A DNA stretch of 36,365 nt, taken from positions 1 to 36,365 of the forward strand of contig REAS01000046.1 of the NCBI GenBank assembly GCA_004294495.1. The letters run 5' to 3'. Positions 11,602 through 22,811 of the stretch are shown one piece after another (positions within the stretch are counted from its first letter, which is position 1; every line of letters starts with the position of its first letter). The DNA is from Sphingobacteriales bacterium (lineage in GTDB: Bacteria; Bacteroidota; Bacteroidia; Sphingobacteriales; Sphingobacteriaceae). Both the position numbers and the translations under genes were made by a program. The notes under the pieces are model-generated. The model saw only the letters and a program-made list of their open reading frames with translations, ran no database searches and was not told the origin of the DNA.

Positions 11602-11645
11602 CCGTTGGCTGAAGCCAACGGGAAATGATACTTTGCAATGTTAAT
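11602..11645 (+). repeat. REP element, plus orientation, left of RAYT
   Basis: Perfect palindrome CCGTTGGCT-GA-AGCCAACGG (11602-11621) followed by a conserved tail including ATACTTTGCAATG. The copy at 12241 matches 38 of the first 44 bases in the same orientation. The tail word TACTTTGCAATG occurs again at 11689-11700, 60 bp downstream. REP palindromes next to a RAYT gene are the expected target and product of that transposase. Confidence 0.85.
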
Positions 11646-11716
11646 ATTGATGAGTATAATTTTTATCAAATCAAGCCAATTGTTATTATACTTTGCAATG
11701 TGGTTTTCGGATATTT

Positions 11717-11745
11717 CAATTGCCGTTATTTTCAGTCAACTGAAT
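11717..11745 (-). repeat. Degenerate REP element, inverted orientation
   Basis: CAATTGCCGTT (11717-11727) followed by a decayed second arm resembles the copy at 12445-12469 closely (same leading CAATTGCCGTT, then CAG and CAAC at matching places). The right part has become a different palindrome, TTCAGT-CA-ACTGAA (11731-11744). It lies 55 bp before the RAYT start. Confidence 0.5.
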
Positions 11746-11800
11746 GAGAAATAATTTTGAAAAAAATAATTATATTTCAATTTTATTTTAAACAGAAAAT

Positions 11801-12235
11801 ATGAGTTGGGTTAGCATTTATGTACACTTGGTGTTTGCTACAAAAAACCGAGAAGCATTTTTAAATTCTTTAGATTTAAGAAAAAAAGTTTTTCAACATA
11901 TTAAAACCAATACCGATAAAAAAGAAATTTGGTTAGATTGTGTTAGCGGTTGGCAAGACCATGCCCATTGTTTAATATCGCTGGGACGAGACCAAAACAT
12001 TGCAAAAATTGCGCAACTAATTAAAGGCGAATCGGCTCATTGGATTAACCATAACAAGTTAACCGAAAATAAATTTATGTGGCAAGACGATTATTGGGCT
12101 GTTGGCGTAAGCGAAAGCCAAGTAGAAAGAGTTAGAAAATATATACACAAACAAGAAGAACATCACTCAAAAAAATCGTTCATTGATGAAATAAAAGAGT
12201 TTGAAACAAATTATAAATGGGTTAAAAATGATTAA
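11801..12235 (+). mobile_element. REP-associated tyrosine transposase (RAYT, Y1_Tnp family)
   Basis: A 144-aa Y1 transposase of the IS200/IS605-related group. The HUH metal-binding pair is His54-Ala-His56 in QDHAHCLISL. The single catalytic Tyr is Tyr114 in VRKYIHKQEEHH. The N-terminus, SWVSIYVHLVFATKNRE, is typical of the family. These enzymes cut and join single-stranded DNA at hairpins, and RAYTs are linked to REP palindromes. All expected residues are present, so it may be active. Matching REP copies in the same orientation lie 180 bp upstream (11602) and 6 bp downstream (12241), with inverted and decayed copies further out. No tnpB or IS605 ends are seen. Confidence 0.88.
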
Positions 12236-12240
12236 CCCAT

Positions 12241-12284
12241 CCGTTGGCTAAAGCCAATGGGAATTGATATTTTGCACCGTTAAT
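12241..12284 (+). repeat. REP element, plus orientation, right of RAYT
   Basis: CCGTTGGCT-AA-AGCCAATGG (12241-12260) is palindromic with one G:T-type mismatch. It is followed by the tail GAATTGATATTTTGCA, matching the left copy at 11602. It begins 5 bp after the RAYT stop codon, so RAYT lies between two direct REP copies 639 bp apart. Confidence 0.8.
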
Positions 12285-12354
12285 TTTCGTGGTAATTAGG
12301 TATAAACTTACGTATCTATATTTATCGCCGTAAATCTAAAAGCGAATAACATTA

Positions 12355-12388
12355 ATACAATCAATTCACGATGGCTTCTGCAAACTAA
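12355..12388 (-). repeat. Decayed REP element, inverted orientation
   Basis: The stretch has ACAATCAATT at its left end and then a broken palindrome containing ATGGCTTCTGC. This resembles the two better copies at 12445 and 12503, with several changes. It seems to be an old copy of the same unit. Confidence 0.4.
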
Positions 12389-12437
12389 TAAAATTTCAAA
12401 TTAATTTTTGCACAATATAAAAATACCGCACTCACAA

Positions 12438-12469
12438 CACAATCAATTGCCGTTTGCGTCAGCCAACGG
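12438..12469 (-). repeat. REP element, inverted, upstream of rsmI
   Basis: ACACAATCAATT (12438-12449) is followed by an imperfect palindrome (12450-12469; CCGTTTGCG-TC-AGCCAACGG). The same arrangement recurs 58 bp downstream inside rsmI. The TC loop is the reverse complement of the GA loop at 11602, so this copy is inverted relative to those flanking RAYT. Confidence 0.7.
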
Positions 12470-12491
12470 AAAATTAAGGAAGAAAGAAAAT

Positions 12492-13199
12492 ATGACACAA
12501 TCAATTACCGTTGGCTTCAGCCAACGGGACCCAGGAAAATTATACCTAGTACCCACGCCAATTGGCAATTTAGAAGATATTACACTTAGAGCTATAAGGG
12601 TTTTAAAGGAAGTAGATTTAATTTTGGCCGAAGATACCCGTACATCGGCACCTTTGTTAAAGCATTTTGGTATCGATAAAAAAGTTTACGCCCATCACCA
12701 ACATAACGAGCATAAGGCTGTTAACGAAATTGTTAGGTTTTTAAACGAAGGGCAAAATGTAGCTTTAATATCCGATGCGGGTACGCCAGCCATAAGCGAC
12801 CCTGGTTTTTTGCTGGTAAGGGCAGTTATAAAAGCGGGCTTGGTAATCGAGTGTTTGCCAGGTGCAACAGCATTTGTGCCGGCCTTGGTAAACTCGGGCT
12901 TACCTAACGATAGGTTTTGTTTCGAAGGATTTTTGCCTGTGAAAAAAGGCCGACAAACCCGTATGAAAGAGCTGGTAACAGAAACACGTACTATGATTTT
13001 TTACGAATCGCCACATCGTTTGTTAAAAACTTTAGAAGAATTTAAGCTTTATTTTGGCGAAGAAAGACAAGTTTCTGTTTCCCGTGAGTTAACAAAAATG
13101 TTTGAAGAGAATGTAAGAGGCACTTTACCCGAGATAATTTCACATTTTGAAAACAATATCTTAAAAGGAGAATTTGTTATTTGCGTAGCGGGATTGTAG
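12492..13199 (+). CDS. rsmI: 16S rRNA (cytidine-2'-O-)-methyltransferase RsmI with REP-derived N-terminus
   Basis: A tetrapyrrole-methylase-fold enzyme that methylates the 2'-OH of C1402 in 16S rRNA. Its family start KLYLVPTPIGNLEDITLRA and the glycine-rich SDAGTPAISDPG motif are intact, as are EDTRTS and FYESPHRL. With the ATG at 12492 it has 235 aa. AAGGA at 12476-12480 could serve as its ribosome binding site. The family normally starts about 2-4 residues before LYLVPT. Here 15 residues precede KLYLVPT, and residues 5-13 (ITVGFSQRD) are encoded by and around a perfect REP palindrome (12508-12527). A more upstream TTG (12408) is also in frame but less likely. Confidence 0.93.
   Translation: MTQSITVGFSQRDPGKLYLVPTPIGNLEDITLRAIRVLKEVDLILAEDTRTSAPLLKHFGIDKKVYAHHQHNEHKAVNEIVRFLNEGQNVALISDAGTPAISDPGFLLVRAVIKAGLVIECLPGATAFVPALVNSGLPNDRFCFEGFLPVKKGRQTRMKELVTETRTMIFYESPHRLLKTLEEFKLYFGEERQVSVSRELTKMFEENVRGTLPEIISHFENNILKGEFVICVAGL
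12508..12527 (-). repeat. REP palindrome inside the rsmI coding region
   Basis: Perfect palindrome CCGTTGGCT-TC-AGCCAACGG lies 14 nt after the chosen ATG, preceded by ACACAATCAATT as in the copy 58 bp upstream. It is read in frame as part of rsmI. A stable 9-bp hairpin this near the start codon could hinder ribosome loading. Confidence 0.85.
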
Positions 13200-18723: not shown

Positions 18724-21126
18724 ATGAAAATATCGTACAACTGGCTTAAAACATTTATAAACACCAATTTAGAGCCTCAACAAATATCAACCATCTTAAC
18801 AAATATAGGTTTAGAGGTAGAAAGCCTAGACGAAGTGCAAGCCGTACCTGGCGGTTTAAAAGGTTTGGTGGTAGGCCACGTTTTAACCTGTGTACAACAC
18901 CCCAATGCCGATAGATTACGCATTACCCAAGTTAACGTAGGTTTAGAAAATCCTTTGCAAATAGTTTGTGGTGCGCCAAATGTTGCGGCTGGGCAAAAAG
19001 TAATTGTTGCCACGGTGGGTTGTACCGTTTACCCCTTGGCGGGAGATGCTTTTGCGATTAATAAATCTAAAATACGTGGCGAAGTATCGGAAGGGATGAT
19101 TTGTGCCGAAGACGAAATAGGCTTAGGCAAAGGCCATGATGGTATTTTGGTTTTACCTGAAGATACCGAAATAGGTTTGCCAGCTAAAAATTATTTTAAA
19201 TTAAATGATGATTATTTGTTTGAAATTGGGCTTACCCCCAACCGGGCCGATGCTACATCGCACTTGGGCGTAGCTCGAGATTTAGCCGCATATTTAAAAA
19301 CCAATATTACCAAACCTAACGTTGATGCATTTAAAACCGATAATGAAAACCTTTTTATACATGTTTTGGTTGAAGATGAAATAGCTGCACCACGCTACTC
19401 GGGCTTAACTATATCGGGCATTACGGTAGCGCCATCGCCTAAATGGCTTACCGAAAAACTGGCTGTAATAGGTGTTAAAGCCATTAACAATGTGGTTGAT
19501 GCTACCAATTATGTTTTACATGATTTAGGGCAGCCTTTACACGCTTTTGATGCCGATGAAATTGCTGGTCATAAAATTATAGTAAAAAAATGTGCCGAGG
19601 GGACTTTATTTACCACTTTAGATGGTGTAGAGCGTAAGTTAACTGCCAACGATTTAATGATTTGTGATGCCGAAAAACCATTGTGTATTGCCGGTGTTTA
19701 TGGCGGTTTACAATCGGGCGTAAGCCAAAAAACCACTTCCATATTTTTAGAGAGTGCGTATTTTAATGCGGTATCGGTACGTAAAACATCTAAACTACAT
19801 AACTTAAAAACCGATGCTTCTTTTAGGTTTGAGCGTGGTACCGACCCGGAGATTACCGTTTACGCTCTTAAGCGAGCAGCTTTATTAATTCAGGAACTGG
19901 CTGGTGGTACCATATCGTCGAACATTTTTGATAACTACCCCAACCCAATACCTGCTTTTGATGTTGAACTTAGCTACGCTCATGTACAACAATTGATAGG
20001 AAAAAACATCCCGGAAACGGAAATAAAAGCCATTATACAAAGTTTAGCCATTGATATTGTAGTCGAAGACAGCCAAAAACTACAACTAAAAATACCCACT
20101 TACCGTGTAGATGTTACCCGCGATGTTGATGTTATTGAAGAGATTTTAAGAATTTATGGTTACGATAATATTGAAATTCCTGCTAAAATAAACGCATCGT
20201 TAAACAACATTAGCAAGCCCGATAAAGATACTTTACAAAACCACATTGCCGATAGTTTAAGTGCTAATGGTTTTTTTGAGATGTTAAGCAATTCGCTTAC
20301 AAAATCATCGTACCCAAATAACCAAAACGAAACCATTAAGATACTAAACCCATTAAGCTCGGATTTAGATGTAATGCGACAAACTTTGTTGTATAATGGT
20401 TTAGAGGCCATTAGCTATAATCAAAATCGCAAAGCTAGCGATTTAAAATTGTACGAGTTTGGTAAAACCTACCATTTAATTGATGAAAAATTTAAAGAAA
20501 TAAACCACCTTTCACTTTTTATTACAGGCAATTTACAGGCCGAAAACTGGCAGCAAAAACAAACAGAGGTTTCGTTTTTTAACACCAAAAACTGGGTTGA
20601 TGGCGTTTTATCTCGCTTAGGCATCAATAACTTAATTACCGATGATGGTGCAAACCCACATTTTGCGTATAGCCTGCAATATAAAAAAGGCGACAAGGTT
20701 TTAGTAGAGTTTGGTGCCGTAGCAAAACCTATTTTAAAAAGTTTTGGTATTGATAAACCTGTTTTTTACGCTAATTTTAATTGGGATTTAGTTTTAAAAA
20801 CGGTAAAAAACAATAAAATATTTTTTCAAGAGATATCTAAGTTTCCGGCCGTAAGACGAGATTTATCTTTGCTGATAGATACCGATATTACTTTTGCCCA
20901 ACTGCATAAAATAGCCTCTAAAACCGAAAAAAGTCTTTTAAAAACCGTAAACGTTTTTGATGTTTATGTGGGCGATAAACTCCCGGAAGGAAAAAAATCG
21001 TATGCCTTAAGCTTTATTTTACAAGACGACGATAAAACCCTAACCGATAAACAAATTGATAGCGTAATGCAAAAGTTGATATTTAATTTAGAAAAAGAAG
21101 CAAAGGCGGAGGTTAGGAAGGGGTAG
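18724..21126 (+). CDS. pheT: Phenylalanine--tRNA ligase beta subunit
   Basis: An 800-aa subunit of the alpha2-beta2 PheRS. It begins MKISYNWLKTFI, then the OB-fold tRNA-binding domain (about 40-155, GLVVGHVLTC onward). Next come the B3/B4 editing region (NNVVDATNYVLHDLGQPLHAFDAD), the B5 domain near 400-480 (YRVDVTRDVDVIEEILRIYGYDNI) and the C-terminal anticodon-binding FDX-ACB domain (KFPAVRRDLSLLID). Length is normal. No pheS is in the window, so the subunits are encoded apart. The stop codon is followed 9 nt later by the first decamer of the S23 array. Confidence 0.97.
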   Translation: MKISYNWLKTFINTNLEPQQISTILTNIGLEVESLDEVQAVPGGLKGLVVGHVLTCVQHPNADRLRITQVNVGLENPLQIVCGAPNVAAGQKVIVATVGCTVYPLAGDAFAINKSKIRGEVSEGMICAEDEIGLGKGHDGILVLPEDTEIGLPAKNYFKLNDDYLFEIGLTPNRADATSHLGVARDLAAYLKTNITKPNVDAFKTDNENLFIHVLVEDEIAAPRYSGLTISGITVAPSPKWLTEKLAVIGVKAINNVVDATNYVLHDLGQPLHAFDADEIAGHKIIVKKCAEGTLFTTLDGVERKLTANDLMICDAEKPLCIAGVYGGLQSGVSQKTTSIFLESAYFNAVSVRKTSKLHNLKTDASFRFERGTDPEITVYALKRAALLIQELAGGTISSNIFDNYPNPIPAFDVELSYAHVQQLIGKNIPETEIKAIIQSLAIDIVVEDSQKLQLKIPTYRVDVTRDVDVIEEILRIYGYDNIEIPAKINASLNNISKPDKDTLQNHIADSLSANGFFEMLSNSLTKSSYPNNQNETIKILNPLSSDLDVMRQTLLYNGLEAISYNQNRKASDLKLYEFGKTYHLIDEKFKEINHLSLFITGNLQAENWQQKQTEVSFFNTKNWVDGVLSRLGINNLITDDGANPHFAYSLQYKKGDKVLVEFGAVAKPILKSFGIDKPVFYANFNWDLVLKTVKNNKIFFQEISKFPAVRRDLSLLIDTDITFAQLHKIASKTEKSLLKTVNVFDVYVGDKLPEGKKSYALSFILQDDDKTLTDKQIDSVMQKLIFNLEKEAKAEVRKG

Positions 21127-21134
21127 GGGGAATA

Positions 21135-21447
21135 GTTGTAAGTCAAAATAGTTAATTAGTCGTAAGTCAAAATTGTCGTAAGTCAAAATAGTTAATTAGT
21201 CGTAAGTCAAAATAGTCGTAAGTCAAAATAGTCTTTACCATCGTTCAATTAAAGACTATCTACACCAGATAAATGACTTACGACTAAAAAAGACTTACGA
21301 CTAAAAAAAAGACTATCTACACCAAACAAATGACCTACGACTATAAAAAACCAAACAAATGACTTACGACTAAAATAACTTACGACTAAAAAAAGACTAT
21401 AACACGCCAAAAAAATGACTTACGACTTAAAAAAGACTTACGACTAA
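21135..21447. repeat. Left decamer array of the S23 element
   Basis: Five copies of GTCGTAAGTC (starts 21135, 21159, 21175, 21199, 21215; the first has one change) run at alternating 24- and 16-bp steps, giving a 40-bp higher unit. A hairpin follows (arms 21228-21237 and 21250-21259). Then come seven copies of the reverse complement GACTTACGAC (starts 21275, 21292, 21332, 21361, 21377, 21417, 21435; two have one change). Between them are spacers of two recurring types, containing CTATCTACACCA or CTATAACACGCCA. The array fills the space from pheT to the S23 start. Confidence 0.9.
21214..21286 (+). repeat. 73-bp core repeat, left copy
   Basis: This 73-bp block recurs at 21859-21931 with a single change (G at 21268 against A). 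It folds as a 12-bp outer stem (21214-21225 with 21274-21285) and a 10-bp inner stem (21228-21237 with 21250-21259) around the loop CCATCGTTCAAT. Confidence 0.9.
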
Positions 21448-21452
21448 ATACT

Positions 21453-21812
21453 ATGATTATAAACAAATTCGAAGATATTATTGCTTGGCAAAAGGCGCAA
21501 GATTTAGCAGTTGAAATCTATTTTATTTTTAAAGATTCTCGAGATTTTGGCTTTAAAGACCAAATACAAAGGGCTTCTGTTTCGGTATCAAATAATATTG
21601 CAGAAGGTTTTGATAGAATGAGTGATAAAGAATTTGTTAGATTTTTATATATTGCATTAGCATCTTGTAGCGAAGTAAAATCAATGTTATATTTAACAGA
21701 AAGATTGAATTATTTAAACAAAGAACAAACCAAGCCGATTATTGATAAAACAAACGAAATTGGCAAAATTATAAGAGGGTTAATAAAAGTGTTGTCGGTA
21801 AAATTAATTTAG
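21453..21812 (+). CDS. Four-helix-bundle protein, S23/IVP family
   Basis: A 119-aa protein of the 23S rRNA intervening-sequence (S23/IVP) family, related in fold to Avd of diversity-generating retroelements. Hallmarks are the N-terminal IIAWQKAQDLAVEIYFIF (about 9-26), QIQRASVSVSNNIAEGF (37-53, with the conserved NIAEG) and FLYIALASCSEV (64-75). The family is helical and basic, and is thought to bind nucleic acid; its function is not established. There is no rRNA here. Instead the ATG lies 8 nt after the last decamer of the left array, and the TAG stop overlaps the first decamer of the right array, so gene and arrays form one unit placed between pheT and the zapA cluster. Confidence 0.88.
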   Translation: MIINKFEDIIAWQKAQDLAVEIYFIFKDSRDFGFKDQIQRASVSVSNNIAEGFDRMSDKEFVRFLYIALASCSEVKSMLYLTERLNYLNKEQTKPIIDKTNEIGKIIRGLIKVLSVKLI

Positions 21813-22205
21813 TCGTAAGTCGATTTAGTCAAGATAGTCAATCAGTCGTAAGTCAATTAGTCGTAAGTCAAAATAGTCTTTACCATCGTTCAATTAAAGA
21901 CTATCTACACCAAATAAATGACTTACGACTATCTACATCAAACAAATGACTTACGACTAAAAAAGACTTACGACTAAAAAAACTATCTACGCCATACAAA
22001 TGACTTACGACTATAACACGCCAAAAAAATGACTTACGACTATTTTGACTTACGACTATAACACAGCAAACAAATGACTTACGACTAAAAAAATGACTTA
22101 CGACTGAAAAAAGACTATAACACGCCAAACAAATGACTTACGACTAAAAAAAGACTATCTACACCAAACAAATGACTTACGACTTAAAAAAGACTTACGA
22201 CTAAA
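21812..22205. repeat. Right decamer array of the S23 element
   Basis: Three GTCGTAAGTC copies (starts 21812, 21845, 21860), the same central hairpin, then eleven exact GACTTACGAC copies (21920, 21948, 21965, 22002, 22031, 22047, 22076, 22095, 22135, 22174, 22192). The spacers are the same two types as on the left. The final 34 bases match the end of the left array, so near-identical sequence precedes both the S23 ATG and the ATG at 22209. Confidence 0.9.
21859..21931 (+). repeat. 73-bp core repeat, right copy
   Basis: Direct copy of 21214-21286 with one difference, 645 bp downstream. It carries the same two-part stem and the loop CCATCGTTCAAT, and the two copies bracket the S23 gene. Confidence 0.9.
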
Positions 22206-22208
22206 GCC

Positions 22209-22499
22209 ATGTCCGAAATCTCTCAAAAATTAAACTCCGTTTTAGAACGAACCCAAAAGTTGGTTGAATTTGCGCAAGCATTACAAGAGCATAACGACTT
22301 ATTAAGTTTAGAAAACCAAAACGTAAAAAATGCACTGCAAACCAGTGAAAATAAGTGCAAAGAGGTGGATGAAAAGCTGCGAATTTTACAGCTTGCAAAA
22401 AGTTTTGAAGGTACAAATGAAAAAACACTTGATATGAAGCAAAAAATTAACGATTTTGTGCGAGAAATTGATAAGTGCATAGTATTGCTAAAAAAGTAA
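22209..22499 (+). CDS. Small coiled-coil protein upstream of zapA
   Basis: A 96-aa, charged, helical protein with heptad-like spacing of Leu/Val through residues 5-70 (KLNSVLERTQKLVEFAQAL, LLSLENQNVKNAL). It has no signal peptide or membrane segment. No family is recognised. It is 21 nt upstream of zapA, so it may be a division-linked partner, comparable in size and coiled-coil character to ZapB, but there is no direct evidence of homology. The S23 repeat array ends 3 nt before its ATG, so the array has replaced or displaced its native upstream region. Confidence 0.75.
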   Translation: MSEISQKLNSVLERTQKLVEFAQALQEHNDLLSLENQNVKNALQTSENKCKEVDEKLRILQLAKSFEGTNEKTLDMKQKINDFVREIDKCIVLLKK

Positions 22500-22520: not shown

Positions 22521-22811
22521 ATGGGAGAAATCTCTATAAAAATAAATATTGCCGACCGTATTTATCCTTTAACAATAAATACTGAAGAAGAGGAAATTGT
22601 GAGGCGAGCAGCCAAAATGATAAACGACCGTATAAAAGAGTTTCAAGACAATTATGCGGTAAAAGATAAGCAAGATTTGCTTTCTATGTGTGTGTTGCAT
22701 TACGCAACTAGTACCATAAAAGCAGAAAAAAAAGTTAGTACTTCAGATACTAACATTGCCGACCAAGTTTACAAATTGGATAGTTTGCTAGATGATTTTT
22801 TTGGAAAATAA
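22521..22811 (+). CDS. zapA: Cell division protein ZapA
   Basis: A 96-aa ZapA, which binds and bundles FtsZ at midcell. The start ISIKINIADRIYPLTI is the N-terminal beta part, followed by EEEIVRRAAKMINDRIKEFQ and the C-terminal helix that forms the coiled-coil tetramer. Length is normal. It follows the small coiled-coil gene by 21 nt. rny lies 168 nt downstream. Confidence 0.88.
   Translation: MGEISIKINIADRIYPLTINTEEEEIVRRAAKMINDRIKEFQDNYAVKDKQDLLSMCVLHYATSTIKAEKKVSTSDTNIADQVYKLDSLLDDFFGK

Follow-up and report, generated by a model that had tools for sequence, protein, structure and literature searches.

S23-family genes inside inverted heptamer arrays as candidate small mobile elements

The stretch of DNA analysed here (the window) comprises 36,365 nucleotides of contig REAS01000046.1, from a Sphingobacteriales bacterium, and holds an S23-family gene enclosed by two repeat arrays, inserted between pheT and a small gene that precedes zapA. 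All four genes lie on the forward strand: pheT (18724..21126), 5' neighbour of the insertion; the S23 gene (S23 / 23S rRNA IVP; 21453..21812), which is intact and encodes a four-helix-bundle protein of 119 aa matching TIGR02436 and PF05635; a small conserved gene, here called x (22209..22499), on the 3' side; and zapA (22521..22811; PF05164). Both pheT and x were assigned from their open reading frames and from the pheT-x-zapA synteny of relatives, in which x is kept 5' of zapA. The arrays are built from the decamer GTCGTAAGTC, matched 26 times with at most one mismatch at 21135-22201 (8 copies on the forward strand and 18 on the reverse, three of them with one change), against a chance expectation of 0.57 for the whole window, and none of 100 shuffles reached 26. 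Each array runs through forward copies, a hairpin and reverse copies. Array 1, located by repeat matches as was array 2, starts with five forward copies (21135..21224, forward strand), followed by a central hairpin (21228..21259, forward strand) of ATAGTCTTTA / TAAAGACTAT, with a 10 bp stem and a 12 nt loop, and by seven reverse copies (21275..21444, reverse strand); array 2 has three forward copies (21812..21869, forward strand), its central hairpin (21873..21904, forward strand) and eleven reverse copies (21920..22201, reverse strand). The hairpins sit inside a 77-nt core (21210-21286 and 21855-21931) that is 97% identical between the two arrays. The gene fits tightly between them: 8 nt lie between the end of the last array 1 copy (21444) and the ATG, and the stop codon (21810-21812) overlaps the first copy of array 2 by one base (21812). 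In all these respects (the copies and their orientation, the order within each array, the two contacts with the gene and its S23/IVP identity), an earlier sequence-only reading of the window proved accurate.

The repeat unit itself exceeds the decamer, since a longer form, the 12-mer AGTCGTAAGTCA, can be recognised; the window repeat is a dimer of the heptamer AAGTCGT, the decamer being one local variant of a repeat whose period is 7 nt and which in close homologues of the window S23 gene occurs as plain (AAGTCGT)n. In the window arrays there are furthermore higher-order units, ~16 and ~40 nt long. Besides the short repeat, a longer unit of ~40 nt, GACTATCTACACCAAACAAATGACTTACGACTAAAAA, was noted in the reverse halves (21287-21450 and 21920-22205), and it is present as well in solo arrays (that is, forward-hairpin-reverse arrays standing alone) elsewhere in the genome. 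Folded as RNA, array 1 is predicted to reach -90.5 kcal/mol (z -12.9) and array 2 -79.3 kcal/mol (z -8.9). Known families of structured RNA were discarded as an explanation, since Rfam gave no match for the region; a defence system was likewise rejected, PADLOC giving no match, and so was a CRISPR, unique spacers and cas genes being absent at the locus. The window also encodes a Y1 (IS200/REP-associated-like) transposase (11801-12235), and around it the palindrome CCGTTGGCT..AGCCAACGG occurs four times within 11602-12527, in what looks like a separate RAYT/REP-type system. This transposase was rejected as the mover of the S23 arrays, because its flanks bear that different and unrelated palindrome.

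The protein scores above the curated cut-offs of both families (PF05635, E 5.1e-35, 120.3 bits with a curated cut-off of 33.8; TIGR02436, 117 bits with a cut-off of 24), and its AlphaFold model, based on an alignment from which four plasmid sequences were left out, shows four helices with a pLDDT of 96. The best structural matches are Xcc0516 (2gsc, TM 0.82-0.86) and BT_0352 (2rld, TM 0.76-0.80), followed by Avd (4dwl, TM 0.75-0.79) and by the ribonucleoprotein of a diversity-generating retroelement (DGR; 8ub7); a PHROG search gave a weak match to Avd as well. The S23 protein is maintained by purifying selection, given a median dN/dS of 0.08 over 26 pairs, although stop codons interrupt the frame in a minority of the copies. 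The S23 element encodes no catalytic protein. To our knowledge there are no nucleases among the proteins of the S23/Avd fold, nor do we know of any catalytic activity of S23, or of a function for this family, in spite of the decades for which it has been known from 23S rRNA intervening sequences. The kinship of PF05635 with Avd has been described before (PMC10053308).

The comparison with related genomes shows that the feature is an insertion. The gap between pheT and x measures ~1.08 kb in the window versus 6-64 nt in most relatives, with the same order pheT-x-zapA, so that the insertion between pheT and the zapA cluster claimed from the sequence alone has its counterpart in empty sites. In several other relatives the gap is of about 100-720 nt, in some of them filled with other sequence, and sister genomes carry a solo array of another heptamer directly 5' of x, without S23. 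The second of the two S23 genes of the genome lies between leuC and leuD and is accompanied by a repeat of another type, AGCCCGA. That junction is occupied by S23 in two sister genomes too, and in many relatives by solo inverted arrays of other heptamers without S23; its gap is 686-735 nt with S23 versus 3-32 nt in short-gap genomes. In two loci (L209 and L217) the same element stands at unrelated sites, with 86% identity over 424 bp and a likeness that ends at the outer repeats. Classical insertion sequences and MITEs have fixed terminal inverted repeats and a target-site duplication; the inverted arms present here consist of variable heptamers, and no empty site was near enough for a duplication to be read.

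The arrays are also dispersed. AGTCGTAAGTCA occurs 96 times in the genome, in ~20 places, and only in one of them, that of the window, is there an S23 gene. Taken literally, these ~19 decamer arrays without the gene (counted by sequence pattern) versus one with it speak against the link between gene and arrays that the sequence-only reading had drawn; they are read here as solo copies. The genes adjoining them are of mixed orientation. Some solo arrays at contig ends (L038 3050-3162, L039 3289-3391, L040 3242-3368 and L049 1-90) abut a common sequence, TGTCTCGTCCTGAAA..GTTTACAC, which is probably an insertion-sequence terminus.

How general this arrangement is was evaluated on 151 S23 loci, mainly from Bacteroidota (71 from the genome of the window and its relatives, 80 from further genomes), with start codons and neighbouring genes assigned by simple rules. 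Inverted repetition was scored as the best local alignment between the 200 nt upstream and the reverse complement of the 200 nt downstream, using as controls shifted windows from these loci and the RbfA genes of the same genomes (a small set, n=28). The median score of 150 S23 loci was 33, that of the shifted windows 17 and that of RbfA 18, and a score of at least 30 was reached by 59% of the S23 loci versus 0/354 shifted windows and 1/28 RbfA genes. The result was replicated in 48 separate loci (median 30.5; at least 30 in 52%, versus 0/92 shifted windows), and so was the period-7 signal, seen as identities at lags 7, 14 and 21 of 0.385, 0.360 and 0.348 versus 0.28-0.29 in the control. About a quarter to a third of the S23 loci score below 24. 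Beyond this sample, 10 of 12 further genes (11 from cyanobacterial and Azospirillum plasmids and one from Riemerella) score at least 29, values that stand without a matched control, with AGTAGGG, GGGTGTA and GGGAACA among their motifs.

The decamer, in turn, had to be rejected as a hallmark of S23, since AGTCGTAAGTCA appears 0-5 times per genome in 99 relatives, yet S23 is present in 73 of 100 genomes; what the loci share is the period of 7 together with the inverted arrangement. Among close relatives the number of S23 copies is patchy, from 0 to 10. Inverted arrays beside S23 are common at other loci, as the earlier reading expected, and the same element does occur at unrelated sites, but the arrays at other loci are mostly short, with period 7 and a lineage-specific sequence of their own. 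For this reason the feature in the window does not stand alone as the distinct element that had been proposed; it is an enlarged instance of an S23 arrangement that is very common.

The heptamer varies by locus, but it tracks the lineage of the S23 protein, even across unrelated insertion sites. The number of 8-mers that two flanks have in common in the same orientation rises with S23 identity (rho 0.20, 0/500 permutations, with host phylogeny partly controlled), versus rho 0.02 in a reversed-sequence control; the correlation is kept in a subset of one locus per genome (rho 0.30, 0/999 permutations) and among pairs with unrelated neighbour genes (rho 0.17, 0/500 permutations). At unrelated sites, at least eight common 8-mers were found in 54% of the pairs with 70-75% protein identity and in 85% of those with 75-80%, versus 8% in the control, and S23 pairs of one genome with less than 40% identity share no more 8-mers than the control. 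The nearest homologues of the window S23 belong to other families, and their repeat is AAGTCGT or a close variant. Among the 14 genomes with the motif at an S23 flank, nine have between 10 and 128 copies elsewhere and the other five have either none or one; in 36 genomes with a related S23 but other flanks, almost all have 0-2 copies, the exceptions having 7 and 39 (p 1.8e-6). A random panel of 394 other Bacteroidota yielded at least five copies in two genomes only (8 and 11), both with S23 genes that are only distant (35-45%). Because of these two genomes the reciprocal link, from motif to S23 lineage, is loose, and together with the five of 14 that hold at most one other copy they imply that dispersal and S23 are not strictly coupled. 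The pairing of heptamer and protein drifts as well, as seen in two Parapedobacter loci (L201 and L207) whose S23 copies are 81% identical and whose heptamers differ.

With regard to the transcript, 116 of the 144 S23 loci with both neighbours called have the gene in the same direction as both neighbours and 8 have it opposed to both, which amounts to 94% sense orientation at same-direction junctions. The neighbouring genes are close, at median distances of 62 and 52 nt. In the predicted RNA, the 120-nt arms pair over at least 15 bp at 83% of the S23 loci versus 21% of RbfA genes, and this predicted stem would close off the S23 ORF in a layout like that of the 23S rRNA intervening sequences.

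These intervening sequences (IVS) are the closest known counterpart. They contain an S23p ORF in Coxiella and Leptospira (PMC4990558), and in Coxiella this ORF lies inside a 28-bp inverted repeat, is cut out with it by RNase III, and is preceded by tandem heptamers (GACAGAT) whose number varies, two or three being present (PMC4990558). A sense-strand S23 ORF between stem-forming inverted repeats is common to both, as found at the window locus, and the Coxiella heptamers just 5' of the ORF add to the likeness. Unlike the IVS, the feature described here lies between pheT and the zapA-linked gene and not inside a 23S rRNA gene, the host transcript being an mRNA between protein genes; its ORF is intact and belongs to a family under purifying selection, its arms have expanded into long arrays, and solo arrays are scattered through the genome. 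REP/REPIN sequences and their RAYT genes offer a different parallel, with a single gene surrounded by lineage-specific inverted repeats and many apparently non-autonomous copies of the flanking repeat dispersed elsewhere. However, RAYTs are Y1 HUH nucleases, and the gene between the repeats is here PF05635, not Y1_Tnp, with no catalytic activity that we know of. Tandem heptamers, finally, are found between genes in cyanobacteria (STRRs) and as TAACTGA repeats in Beggiatoaceae, Cyanobacteria and Bacteroidetes (PMC4679880, where S23 is not mentioned). They resemble the present repeats in being intergenic and patchy between phyla, and several S23-flanking motifs are of their type (e.g., AGTAGGG, or TAACTGA-like), although the repeats described here are the inverted arms of an S23 element. 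We know of no origin assigned to the heptamers reported from cyanobacteria and from Beggiatoaceae.

Taken together, the S23 gene between inverted arrays of heptamer period is interpreted as a small mobile, or recently mobile, element, similar to an IVS placed in mRNA and accompanied by non-autonomous solo copies, a reading to which we give slightly better than even odds (roughly 0.55). Mobility on an evolutionary scale is the best reading of the data; present mobility, and the chemistry by which the element would transpose, are inferred, no transposition having been seen. According to this model, the element would land mostly between genes of the same direction and be read together with those genes; pairing of both arms in the RNA would then hold the S23 ORF in a loop and keep the adjacent ORFs intact. 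What the S23 protein recognises is probably its own heptamer, in DNA or RNA form, and RNase III may process the stem in the mRNA. The arms alone would spread as non-autonomous copies, which is how the solo arrays may be understood because the motif is abundant mainly where S23 carries it, and the element of the window would be an overgrown one, with one complete solo array on either side of the gene.

The main rival reverses the order of events: replication slippage and recombination would enlarge heptamer repeats of the host, into which S23 would merely insert or in which it would survive best. It accounts for the many solo arrays, which in this genome exceed those bearing S23, for the solo arrays, built of other heptamers, that occupy the pheT-x and leuC-leuD junctions of sister genomes in place of S23, and for the units of ~16 and ~40 nt, such as recombination would give. 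It does not account for a motif that tracks the S23 lineage between unrelated sites, nor for different S23 lineages of one genome using different motifs, and the flanks are inverted arms around a gene, with a likeness between elements that stops at the outer repeats; we consider it unlikely, though the likeliest of the rivals. Rather less probable is that S23 is a domesticated RNA regulator that binds heptamers in mRNA and controls the processing or translation of operons, the repeats being regulatory sites as proposed for TAACTGA in Beggiatoaceae, where they lie upstream of start codons (PMC4679880). The sense orientation and the closeness to start and stop codons would suit such a role, and so would the predicted pairing of the arms, the purifying selection and the fold in common with Avd, part of the DGR ribonucleoprotein; nonetheless, a presence as patchy as 0-10 copies among close relatives, insertions between unrelated housekeeping genes, internal stops in a minority of copies and a set of target genes with nothing seen in common are hardly expected from it.

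That fold raises another possibility, namely that S23 is an Avd-like partner of a reverse transcriptase copying the element via RNA. The structural matches to 4dwl (TM 0.75-0.79) and 8ub7 and the weak PHROG match to Avd agree with it, and a strong sense bias would suit an RNA intermediate. However, unlike in a diversity-generating retroelement, a search for RVT_1 gave no match in this genome (92% complete), by which a retroelement with a resident reverse transcriptase was rejected, and no reverse transcriptase adjoins the S23 genes inspected, so this explanation appears very improbable. As for chance or an assembly artefact of low-complexity sequence, A/T-rich intergenic DNA readily forms simple repeats, but the controls from the same loci and genomes give no signal, which refutes it, and the pattern is found in complete plasmids as well; its probability is practically nil.

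Returning to the reading as a mobile element, it can be extended, in a tentative manner and with less than even odds, to S23 as a widespread class of minimal mobile elements with no recognised recombinase, each made of a nucleic-acid-binding four-helix protein and of cognate heptamer arms that it would recognise and help to spread, with the 23S rRNA IVS, the cyanobacterial heptamers and the TAACTGA repeats all as its products. The pieces have been published separately (S23 in rRNA IVS, the Coxiella heptamers, the TAACTGA repeats, the STRRs and the PF05635-Avd kinship), and the open-licence literature yielded no paper that links STRRs to S23 and none that joins S23 genes with inverted heptamer arms in general. 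On the present data, S23 genes are the ones enclosed by inverted heptamer arrays, a setting found in three phyla or more, and the heptamer changes with the protein. This ties together three puzzles reported separately (23S rRNA intervening sequences, cyanobacterial heptamers and Beggiatoa heptamers), provides a candidate explanation for many intergenic repeats, and opens a direct test, the binding of its own heptamer by each S23. If true, mobile elements would be possible with a tiny protein lacking a known catalytic domain.

Some settings of S23 genes in other genomes are worth recording. An S23 gene at the sufB-sufC junction apparently occurs in several families of the class (L054, L056, L058, L061 and L079, genes named by eye), as either an old inherited insertion or a repeated target. 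In a layout that is similar across several genomes (L166, L167, L168 and L186, by eye), the element lies between a small helix-turn-helix regulator and a downstream gene resembling restriction-modification ones. Two cyanobacterial S23 genes are located in CRISPR loci, one between cas10 and the Cmr3 gene of a type III-B operon (L363, 1-3318) and another between cas6 and cas4 (L357, 380-2544). Lastly, L212 (CP034120.1, labelled Glaciecola amylolytica, a label that may be wrong) holds a Bacteroidota-type S23 element interrupted by an in-frame stop, and in its family 86 of 100 genomes have S23 genes.
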